Below the pieces are notes generated by a model that did not search any database, was not told the origin of the DNA, and saw only the letters and a program-made list of their open reading frames with translations. Below, in pieces: positions 13,767 through 59,758 of a stretch of DNA of 64,000 nt. Source of the stretch: an uncultured Bacteroidia bacterium (lineage in GTDB: Bacteria > Bacteroidota > Bacteroidia > Bacteroidales > ML635J-15). The first letter of the stretch is position 1. Each line of letters opens with the position of its first letter. The translations under genes were made by a program, and so were the position numbers. The stretch spans positions 186,001 to 250,000 of the forward strand of contig CADCCZ010000004.1 in the NCBI GenBank assembly GCA_902800045.1. Reading direction: 5' to 3'.

Positions 13767-13812
13767 CAATCGTAAATCGTAATTCTAAAATCGTAAATAA
13801 TCTTTATCTTTG
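13767..13812 (+). promoter_or_regulatory. TCGTAAAT-rich promoter module with TATCTTTG box
   Basis: A TATCTTTG -7 box (13805-13812) is preceded by repeated CGTAAAT units (13767-13799). No TTTG lies 19 bases upstream. Nearly the same arrangement occurs at 41047-41089 (+) and 20021-20067 (-). The ATG of the next gene is 7 bases after the box, so the mRNA would be leaderless or nearly so. Confidence 0.7.
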
Positions 13813-13819
13813 CCGTCCC

Positions 13820-14455
13820 ATGAACGAAACAAAAATCATATCGCTTTTGCCAAAGTTCGACACCACATTCTTCGAAAGGTACGCCAAGATCGTGCTTGTC
13901 GATTTGCTCGGCGAGAAATACGCAAACCTCGTCAACTGCGACCGTCCCGACCTGCAGGACAACGAGGCTGGCATCGGCATCGAAGTTACCCGTGCAATGG
14001 TAACTGGCCGCGACGATGCGATTTCGCTCATCACCGACATGGCTGGTGCCGACGATATTTCCGACAGCGACATCGAACGCATCAGGCGCTACGGCTACAG
14101 CTACGGTATCCACCGCAGACTGATGGGTAAGGTCGAAGAAGAATTCTGGTCGCTGGCAATTCCGCTCAAGCGCATAATAGAAAGCAAAGTGTGCAAGGTT
14201 GCAAACGGATTTTACGGAAGTTTCCACGAATTCGGACTATTTGTTTTCTCGAAGGACGAACTTTCGCTGGAATACGCCACGCAAACTATGGACTATACCA
14301 TCGAAATACAGCAGGAAAACGCAACAAAGTACGCCACGATGTTCATTTTCGATACCCATTCGCTTTTCGTCTGCGACCTAGTAAACGACCTCATAACGCA
14401 GATTAATGTGAATGCCGAACAATGCGAAAGATATTATATGGATGCGTTAAAATAA
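13820..14455 (+). CDS. Unknown protein with a PD-(D/E)XK-like motif
   Basis: 211 residues from the ATG at 13820; the upstream part of the frame covers the promoter and is rejected. I do not recognise the family. Residues about 25-60 read CDRPDLQDNEAGIGIEVTRA; this Asp...Glu-Val-Thr spacing resembles the core of PD-(D/E)XK nucleases, but the Lys is not clear and this is inference only. The rest is mixed alpha/beta with no signal peptide or membrane segment, so it is probably cytosolic. No restriction or defence genes are adjacent. Confidence 0.7.
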   Translation: MNETKIISLLPKFDTTFFERYAKIVLVDLLGEKYANLVNCDRPDLQDNEAGIGIEVTRAMVTGRDDAISLITDMAGADDISDSDIERIRRYGYSYGIHRRLMGKVEEEFWSLAIPLKRIIESKVCKVANGFYGSFHEFGLFVFSKDELSLEYATQTMDYTIEIQQENATKYATMFIFDTHSLFVCDLVNDLITQINVNAEQCERYYMDALK

Positions 14456-19029: not shown

Positions 19030-20001
19030 TTAGTCCTTAACAAGTTCGTCGATGATGTCTTCGATGGAAAGACCTTCGGCTTCGGCCTTGTAGTTCTTCA
19101 CAACCCTGTGGCGCAAAACAATCTTTGCAACTGCCTGAACATCCTCAATGTCGGGAGAATATTTGCCGTTAAGCACAGCCACTGTCTTTGCTCCGATGAC
19201 AAGGTATTGCGATGCACGTGGTCCTGCTCCCCAGTGTATGAACTTGCGTGTGATTTCGGGGGCAATCTCCGAATCGGGACGAGTCTTGTTTACAAGGCGC
19301 ACTGCATATTCGAGTACATTGTCGTTAATCGGAATCTTACGGATAAGGTTCTGGAAATAAATGATTTCCTCTGCGCTCAAAATCTGTTTGATTTCGAAAT
19401 TCTTGTCGGCGGTAGTGTTCTTCACGATGCGGATTTCGTCGTCGAGGCTCGGGTAGCCGACATTTATGTTGAACATAAAACGGTCGAGTTGGGCTTCGGG
19501 CAACGGATATGTACCTTCCTGCTCAATTGGGTTCTGGGTAGCCATGACGAAAAATGGTTCGTCGAGCTTGTAGATTGTACCCGAGGCGGTTACCGAGCGT
19601 TCCTGCATTGCTTCGAGCAGTGCGGCCTGAGTCTTAGGCGGAGTACGGTTGATTTCGTCGGCAAGGATGAAGTTGGCGAAAATCGGGCCCTTTATGAACT
19701 TGAACTGGCGGTCTTCACCAAGAATTTCGCTACCGATAATGTCCGATGGCATAAGGTCGGGTGTAAACTGGATACGCTTGTTCTTCAAGCCAAGAACTTC
19801 GGCTATAGTGTTTACCAACAAGGTTTTTGCCAGTCCCGGAACACCAACAAGCAGGCAGTGTCCACGGCTGAAAATTGAAATCAGCACTTCCTTAACAACC
19901 TGGTCCTGACCGTAAATCTTCTTGCCAATCTCGACTAGCATCTCGTCGTATTTCGACCTCAAGGCATTTGCAGCCTCCACATTGTCCTTGTATTCAATCA
20001 T
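19030..20001 (-). CDS. MoxR-family AAA+ ATPase
   Basis: 323 residues. Walker A GVPGLAKT (53-60), Walker B FILADEIN (111-118), then PPKTQAALLEAMQER and ATQNPIEQEGTYPLPEAQLDRF, the MoxR signature; C-terminal AAA lid domain. MoxR ATPases act as chaperones that often load metals or activate VWA-domain partners. No VWA gene is adjacent here; the downstream gene is OstA-like. Its promoter carries the TCGTAAAT-rich module. Confidence 0.93.
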   Translation of the reverse strand: MIEYKDNVEAANALRSKYDEMLVEIGKKIYGQDQVVKEVLISIFSRGHCLLVGVPGLAKTLLVNTIAEVLGLKNKRIQFTPDLMPSDIIGSEILGEDRQFKFIKGPIFANFILADEINRTPPKTQAALLEAMQERSVTASGTIYKLDEPFFVMATQNPIEQEGTYPLPEAQLDRFMFNINVGYPSLDDEIRIVKNTTADKNFEIKQILSAEEIIYFQNLIRKIPINDNVLEYAVRLVNKTRPDSEIAPEITRKFIHWGAGPRASQYLVIGAKTVAVLNGKYSPDIEDVQAVAKIVLRHRVVKNYKAEAEGLSIEDIIDELVKD

Positions 20002-20020: not shown

Positions 20021-20067
20021 CAAAGATAAAAAAGATTTACGATTTACGAAGTACGATTGACGATTGA
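20021..20067 (-). promoter_or_regulatory. TCGTAAAT-rich promoter module of the MoxR gene
   Basis: On the minus strand TCGTAAATCGTAAAT-like repeats run into a TATCTTTG box (20028-20021). No TTTG lies at the -33 position. It is the third copy of the module seen at 13767 and 41047. The ATG is about 20 bases downstream. Confidence 0.7.
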
Positions 20068-41046: not shown

Positions 41047-41089
41047 TAGTAAATCGTAAATCTAAAATCGTAAATAAGTTTTATCTTTG
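41047..41089 (+). promoter_or_regulatory. TCGTAAAT-rich promoter module of mrp
   Basis: TATCTTTG (41082-41089) preceded by GTAAATCGTAAAT and AAATCGTAAATAAG. It aligns closely over about 40 bases with the module at 13767-13812. No TTTG at -33. The ATG is 22 bases after the box. Confidence 0.72.
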
Positions 41090-41111: not shown

Positions 41112-42206
41112 ATGAACAAAGAAGATATTATTGAAGTACTCGGAGCAGTGTGTTATCCCGAAACAGGGCGTACACTCGAAGAGGAAGGAATGATAGGCGA
41201 GATTGAAGCCAACGGCAAAGAAATAGATATAACTCTATTGTTCCCGAAACCAACCGATCCGTTCCTTTCGTCGATAAGGCGTGACGTGAAGGATGTTTTG
41301 GAGGCTCATTTTGGCGATGTTGCTGTTAATGTTGTAACAAAGGTAAAGCCGAAGGAAACGAAGAAGCAACCTGTAGAGTGTGGTGTCGGCAAGGTAAAGA
41401 ATATTATTGCTGTTGCAGGCGGCAAGGGTGGTGTTGGTAAATCGACTGTTGCCGTAAACCTTGCAATTTCGTTGGCTCAGAAGGGCTACAAGGTTGGTCT
41501 GCTCGATGCCGACATTTTCGGACCGAGTGTTCCAAAGATGTTCAAAACCGAAGATGCCCAACCGATGGCTGAAGCCGACAGCGAAGGACGTGAAATTATT
41601 ATGCCAGTCGAACAATACGGAATTAAGTTGTTGTCGGTTGGTTATTTTGTTGCTCCTGGCAGTGCAGCAATTTGGCGTGGTCCAATGGCAGCAGGCGTGA
41701 TGAGGCAGTTCATCCAGAACACCAAGTGGGGAGAACTCGACTATTTGCTTTTCGATATGCCTCCAGGAACAGGCGACATACATCTTACATTGGTTCAGAC
41801 CGTTCCAGTTACGGGCGTAGTGGTTGTTTGTACGCCTCAGCAGGTTGCAATTGCCGATGCTCGCAAGGCTGTTTCGCTGTTCCGTACCAAGGATATCAAT
41901 GTGCCGATTTTGGGTATCGTCGAGAATATGTCGTGGTTTACACCTGCCGAACTGCCCGACAACAAGTACTATCTGTTTGGCAAGGATGGTGGTGTTGAAC
42001 TTGCAAAGGCAATGGACACCGAACTTCTCGGACAGATTCCTATCGTGAAGTCAATCTGCGATAGCGGCGACAAGGGAATGCCTGCTTCGATGGAATTTGC
42101 AAGCATAGTTGGAAAATTGTTTGCTCAGCTTGCTGCAAATCTGGTAAAGGCTGTCGAAAAGCGCAATGCAACCTTGCCACCGACAAAAATGGTAGAAACA
42201 AAGTAA
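41112..42206 (+). CDS. mrp: Mrp/NBP35-family Fe-S cluster carrier ATPase
   Basis: 364 residues: an N-terminal FeS-assembly (DUF59-like) domain (about 1-80) and a ParA-like ATPase with deviant Walker A GGKGGVGKST (103-112) and LLFDMPPGTGDIHL. It carries and transfers [4Fe-4S] clusters. The CxxC that bridges the cluster in most homologues, normally just after NMS(Y/W)F, is absent; the position reads NMSWFTPAELPDNKYYLFG. It is followed after 11 bp by a NifU-like gene, a functional pair. Confidence 0.94.
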   Translation: MNKEDIIEVLGAVCYPETGRTLEEEGMIGEIEANGKEIDITLLFPKPTDPFLSSIRRDVKDVLEAHFGDVAVNVVTKVKPKETKKQPVECGVGKVKNIIAVAGGKGGVGKSTVAVNLAISLAQKGYKVGLLDADIFGPSVPKMFKTEDAQPMAEADSEGREIIMPVEQYGIKLLSVGYFVAPGSAAIWRGPMAAGVMRQFIQNTKWGELDYLLFDMPPGTGDIHLTLVQTVPVTGVVVVCTPQQVAIADARKAVSLFRTKDINVPILGIVENMSWFTPAELPDNKYYLFGKDGGVELAKAMDTELLGQIPIVKSICDSGDKGMPASMEFASIVGKLFAQLAANLVKAVEKRNATLPPTKMVETK

Positions 42207-59686: not shown

Positions 59687-59758
59687 GGTCCGATCGTCTA
59701 ATGGTTAGGACGTCAGATTTTCATTCTGGTAATCGGGGTTCGATTCCCCGCCGGACTG
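59687..59758 (+). tRNA. tRNA-Glu (anticodon TTC)
   Basis: 72 nt. Acceptor GGTCCGA/CCGGACT, a D-arm with GGTTAGGA, anticodon stem TCAGA/TCTGG around loop TTTTCAT (anticodon TTC), T-arm CGGGG-TTCGATT-CCCCG. The acceptor has an A7-C66 mismatch and a G1-U72 wobble. CCA is not encoded. It is a lone tRNA between its own promoter and terminator. Confidence 0.95.

Follow-up and report, generated by a model that had tools for sequence, protein, structure and literature searches.

How is transcription initiated at a group of functionally unrelated genes of a rumen Bacteroidales genome (UBA1184-like clade), where a repeat element stands in the position in which the usual upstream promoter box would be expected? 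The question arises from three sites in a 64,000-nucleotide stretch of this genome (the window; 44% GC), located upstream of a gene of unknown function, a MoxR ATPase gene and mrp. The first-pass annotation had proposed that at these sites repeated units run directly into a -7 box, that TTTG is absent 19 bases upstream, and that a dispersed repeat supplies an alternative promoter recognition element or a binding site for a common regulator. The observation is confirmed for all three sites, and extends well beyond them. When read in steps of seven back from the -7 box, the sites are tandem arrays of TCGTAAA-type heptamers, each followed by a 6-bp spacer and TATCTTTG. The copies at 13770 and 41047 match at 39 of 43 positions, as counted by eye, and none of the three has TTTG 18-20 bases before the TA of the box. 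The 7-bp register and the clade-wide extent of the element had been missed in the first-pass annotation. The coordinates of the features are collected in the table, in which G numbers denote genomes of related species and L and C numbers denote loci and contigs.

Coordinates of the heptamer arrays, the associated -7 boxes and genes, and other features discussed in the text
Position	Strand	Feature	Remarks
13770..13812	+	whole module	TCGTAAA TCGTAAT TCTAAAA TCGTAAA TAATCTT TATCTTTG
13770..13798	+	heptamer array, 4 units in register, upstream of the 13820 gene	same array in G005, G016 and (degenerate) G022
13805..13812	+	-7 box TATCTTTG	6 bp after the last TCGTAAAT
13820..14455	+	gene of unknown function	211 aa, no Pfam match
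20063..20021	-	whole module	TCGTCAA TCGTACT TCGTAAA TCGTAAA TCTTTTT TATCTTTG
20035..20063	-	heptamer array, 4 units in register	array also in G005, G022, G014; absent from G016, G007, G006
20021..20028	-	-7 box TATCTTTG	
19030..20001	-	MoxR-family AAA ATPase gene	PF07726, E 6e-62
41047..41089	+	whole module	TAGTAAA TCGTAAA TCTAAAA TCGTAAA TAAGTTT TATCTTTG
41047..41075	+	heptamer array, 4 units in register	
41082..41089	+	-7 box TATCTTTG	
41112..42206	+	mrp gene (Mrp-type ATPase)	name from the first-pass annotation; orthologs found in 23 of 25 same-genus relatives or better
59687..59758	+	tRNA	only Rfam gathering-level match in the window
L400, L403, L125:19910-19927, L089 (C2:385401)		dispersed repeat CTTTAGCTCGGCGTAGCC	other copies L401-L410
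C1:1069910		fourth promoter with TTTG from the dispersed repeat	
L125:16539 and L091:7922		two arrays without a -7 box	near a hairpin followed by a T-run
L478-L515		TCGTAAA arrays in viral contigs	34 distinct sites

The number of such elements in the genome (3.2 Mb, 13 contigs) is far above chance expectation, and an origin by chance or composition is rejected by reversed, reverse-orientation and unbiased-sample controls. Pattern searches reveal 32 matches to TCGTAAATN{0,20}TATCTTTG, with none in the reversed control, and 70 matches to TCGTAAATN{0,30}TANNTTTG, with 2 in the reversed control; merging of overlapping hits by hand leaves about 57 distinct promoters. In 47 aligned sites the last TCGTAAAT is located 6 bp (35 sites), 7 bp (10 sites) or 5 bp (2 sites) from TAnnTTTG, with the ATG usually 16-25 bp beyond the box. 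In the 0.92 Mb of genomic stretches analysed, the histogram of distances between TCGTAAAT and the box peaks at 6, 13, 20 and 27 bp (35, 10, 7 and 5 sites), with smaller counts one base longer, whereas the reverse orientation gives only 3 scattered hits at other spacings and the reversed letters none. Most arrays contain 4 (17 sites) or 5 (15 sites) contiguous units with the consensus TCGTAAA. The length of the spacer is nearly constant, but its sequence is not, with 33 different spacers in the 47 sites, which argues for a distance constraint rather than recent copying. If TAnnTTTG occupies positions -12 to -5 (PMC9723704), the units start near -26, -33, -40 and -47, and would thus lie across the region where sigma region 4 normally contacts TTTG-33.

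It had been set as a condition against the proposal that the repeat should be as common away from promoters as near them, but this is not what is found. In an unbiased sample of 404 kb, consisting of the window and 17 evenly spaced stretches of contig 1, intergenic TCGTAAAT occurs 22 times in upstream orientation against 2 times elsewhere, while the reversed control gives 0 and 1 (with simple ORF-based gene calls). When 30 TCGTAAAT loci chosen without regard to a box are added, 11 of 12 arrays with two or more extra in-phase units precede a TAnnTTTG. The one exception, and a second one in the enlarged set, appear to lie just past the stop codons of similar genes read on the other strand. The profile scores of 136 candidate promoters are bimodal, with ten above 16 and all others below -2, and TCGTAAAT is the strongest de novo 8-mer of the upstream regions after words of the -7 box itself. 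The downstream genes include ileS, gltX, pheT, ssb, and genes for DNA polymerase III delta, a 2-hydroxyacid dehydrogenase, a DEAD helicase, GTP cyclohydrolase I, riboflavin kinase, a lumazine-binding (riboflavin synthase-like) protein, a thioredoxin reductase-like oxidoreductase, FTCD, an MscS channel, glycosyltransferases, ABC proteins, MoxR and a protein kinase. Many of these are housekeeping genes, and no functional theme is seen in the Pfam annotation of about 40 downstream genes.

The arrays and the -33 box appear to exclude each other. None of the 40 promoters with at least one extra heptad has TTTG at N18-21, against 9 of 58 non-module promoters (Fisher p = 0.01), and the three module sites that do have TTTG-N19 have no adjoining upstream heptads (p = 0.002). 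In these three sites, and in the fourth promoter listed in the table, TTTG is derived from a dispersed repeat, CTTTAGC(T/G)CGGCTTTGC; the four copies found at promoters read GGCTTTGC and so supply TTTG exactly 19 bp before a -7 box, whereas the copies inspected away from promoters read GGCGTAGCC or GGCGCAGCC. The first-pass annotation had cited rpmH, rplU, rpmE2 and MBOAT as promoters with TTTG exactly 19 bases upstream; in the sample as a whole, rather than gene by gene, TTTG-N19 is the clear spacing peak (23 against 1-8 at other spacings), although only 9 of 58 non-module promoters carry TTTG at N18-21. At mrp, 4 of 13 clade species (the own genome, G005, G002 and G016) have the array and no TTTG, 8 have TTTG-N19 and no array, and G021 is a hybrid with the dispersed repeat and TTTG-N19, with the spacings read by eye. 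At ileS, 12 of 13 clade species have the array with nearly the same units (TCGTAAA TCGTCAT TCGTAAA TCGTAAA), while most sister species carry a shared AATTTGGAAA block that by eye puts TTTG about 20 bp before the -7 box. However, among 29 other orthologous promoters that have a -7 box but no array or single unit, only 2 have TTTG-33, and clean alternation is therefore shown only at mrp and ileS.

For 25 of the 28 own module genes queried, the promoters were read in up to six further species, and 86 of these 130 promoters keep an array and 8 a single unit; four genes, including ileS and gltX, have it in all seven species. Between the own and the distant species, orthologous arrays are 0.80, 0.69 and 0.69 identical in units two to four, compared to 0.59, 0.47 and 0.50 for non-orthologous arrays in the same register, with a sharp drop to 0.34 beyond -43; fourfold-degenerate sites in the same species are 0.72-0.80 identical. 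It should be noted that this comparison is ungapped, such that indels lower the upstream values, and that the last unit is conserved partly because the sites were chosen by it. Orthologous arrays, as at ileS and pheT, retain locus-specific units although the DNA just upstream is unalignable, so the array is probably under selection. The intergenic DNA upstream of the arrays, in the own and in related genomes, is rich in other short word-like repeats (TCAAATCT, CATTGTCCATTATC, TGTTAGCC, ACTTAGAA), some of which occupy the place of the array in orthologs.

The taxonomic range of the module is narrow. All 13 sampled clade species, i.e. the own species and the 12 relatives with mrp at least 92% identical, carry the module, whereas the 12 same-genus species outside that group that were searched have none. 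In 393 genomes of the order, the five clade genomes have 20-35 copies, and the 388 others have 0-2, similar to the reversed control. In contrast, the heptamer itself is a recurrent short repeat: TCGTAAA arrays also occur at 34 distinct places in viral contigs of other composition, mostly of higher GC, against 6 and 12 stretches for two control patterns, commonly just before a start codon and without the -7 box. What is peculiar to the clade is the locking of the repeat to the -7 box. Spread of the module by phages is rejected, since N6+TATCTTTGC is at control level in the viral contigs, with 13 against 13. An RNA element is likewise rejected, since the array lies upstream of the expected start, and Rfam reveals only one tRNA in the window and nothing near an exceptional array.

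The known contact surfaces of RNA polymerase do not explain the clade restriction. The clade genomes contain at most one sigma factor with a region-3 domain (none was found in one incomplete genome), whereas same-genus species outside the clade often have two or three. The region 4.2 recognition helix of sigma-A is unchanged relative to sister species, although sigma-A shows 12 clade-fixed substitutions outside this helix, several of them near region 4.2, and the DNA-binding surface of alpha-CTD is shared with sister species that lack arrays. A profile search for ribbon-helix-helix proteins of the RHH_1 family (PF01402), not extending to other RHH families such as PF07764, detected none in the clade's genomes nor in any of the 26 genomes searched, although it gave matches in 9 of 14 control genomes. 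No array-binding protein was found by these comparisons.

A comparison with known systems shows both similarities and differences. Like the canonical sigma-ABfr promoter of Bacteroides (PMC7366714), the module has the -7 box TAnnTTTG shortly upstream of the start codon and a short leader, but the -33 TTTG is absent and its place is covered by the array. In the SARP (AfsR) and PafBC 'sigma adaptation' promoters of actinobacteria (PMC10936776, PMC5930380), direct repeats likewise lie at a fixed short distance (8 bp for SARP) upstream of the -10 element, overlapping a poor or missing -35 element, and are read by an activator that engages sigma region 4; the direct repeats of the present module also stand at a fixed short distance from the -7 box in place of the -33 contact. 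However, the repeats in actinobacteria, a different phylum, are separated by 11 or 22 bp rather than forming contiguous 7-bp units, and they serve pathway regulators rather than dozens of unrelated promoters. The omega/ParB heptads of plasmid pSM19035 (PMC9499535) are contiguous, non-palindromic 7-bp direct repeats (WATCACW; here WATCGTA) that overlap promoters in several copies per site, as the present arrays do, but they occur in 7-10 copies at three plasmid genes, have a partition and repression role and require an RHH protein. The TAACTGA heptamer repeats of Beggiatoaceae, Cyanobacteria and some Bacteroidetes (PMC4679880) also form many intergenic, forward-oriented sets upstream of unrelated genes that change by 7-nt steps, but the heptamer is different, typically ends next to the start codon rather than 6-7 bp before a -7 box, was read as post-transcriptional, and is not reported to be in register with a promoter box. 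In the literature searched, no paper contains TCGTAAATCGTAAAT or the complement-like strings tested, a single-motif search returned unrelated primers and the like, and other searches gave analogies only. The module looks like a previously undescribed kind of bacterial promoter.

The most likely explanation is that the repeat is the upstream half of a lineage-specific class of primary-sigma promoter, extending from -26 to about -50 and standing in for the -33 box. The sequences themselves establish the register and single orientation of the arrays, the exclusion of TTTG-33, the restriction to one clade, the conservation at orthologous promoters and the array-versus-TTTG-33 alternatives at mrp and ileS, whereas it is inferred, without transcription-start or binding data, that the array drives transcription and that a clade-specific, cooperative heptad-binding protein sits on it and holds RNA polymerase through sigma region 4 or alpha-CTD, by analogy with SARP and PafBC (PMC10936776), such that no -33 box would be needed. 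Contiguous heptads bound cooperatively have a precedent in omega (PMC9499535). In this view, arrays change in 7-bp steps and are gained or lost at individual promoters during evolution. It is probable that the array is a functional promoter element, but that a separate protein reads it is about as likely as not, and the model as a whole is only slightly more likely than not. The interpretation of the first-pass annotation is thus partly supported: an alternative promoter element supplied by a dispersed repeat is well supported, but a common regulator is unproven, and the sites represent not a three-gene regulon but a class of roughly 55-80 promoters without a functional theme.

Recognition of the array by RNA polymerase itself, as an UP-like or extended promoter element contacted by sigma-A or alpha-CTD, is less likely but is not excluded. 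The nearly fixed spacing of 6-7 bp to the -7 box, the clade-fixed sigma-A substitutions near region 4.2 and the use at many housekeeping genes are compatible with this mode, but the identical or nearly identical recognition helix and alpha-CTD surface in sister species without arrays favour a separate factor, and a 7-bp period does not fit the helical phasing of alpha-CTD sites. It is more doubtful still that the array is a tolerated, slippage-driven tandem repeat without function that happens to lie between an upstream region and the -7 box. The other dispersed repeats in the same intergenic regions, the variation in unit number between orthologs and the arrays in unrelated viral contigs would agree with such an origin, whereas the shared locus-specific unit variants next to unalignable flanks, the constant length but variable sequence of the spacer, the absence of the reverse orientation and the near absence from non-promoter intergenic DNA argue against it. 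Least likely is a conventional regulon, in which the arrays would be operators for a repressor or activator responding to one signal on top of otherwise ordinary promoters. Although tandem heptad operators overlapping promoters are known for omega, no functional theme is seen among about 40 annotated downstream genes, TTTG-33 is missing rather than overlapped, and RHH_1 proteins were not detected in any of 26 genomes.

A more far-reaching possibility, which can only be put forward tentatively, is that one bacterial lineage has moved dozens of unrelated, partly essential promoters from -33 recognition to a tandem-heptad element read by a lineage-specific global activator, and that the element is still being gained and lost promoter by promoter, i.e., a rewiring of core-promoter recognition caught in progress. 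The motif also helps to predict transcription starts in uncultured rumen Bacteroidales. Core promoter elements are usually taken to be stable across a phylum, but here a clade of about 13 sampled species uses a different upstream element at dozens of promoters, while sister species and the rest of the order do not. Orthologous promoters exist in both states, at mrp and ileS, so that the way in which one promoter element replaces another, and what reads it, is directly accessible to testing.
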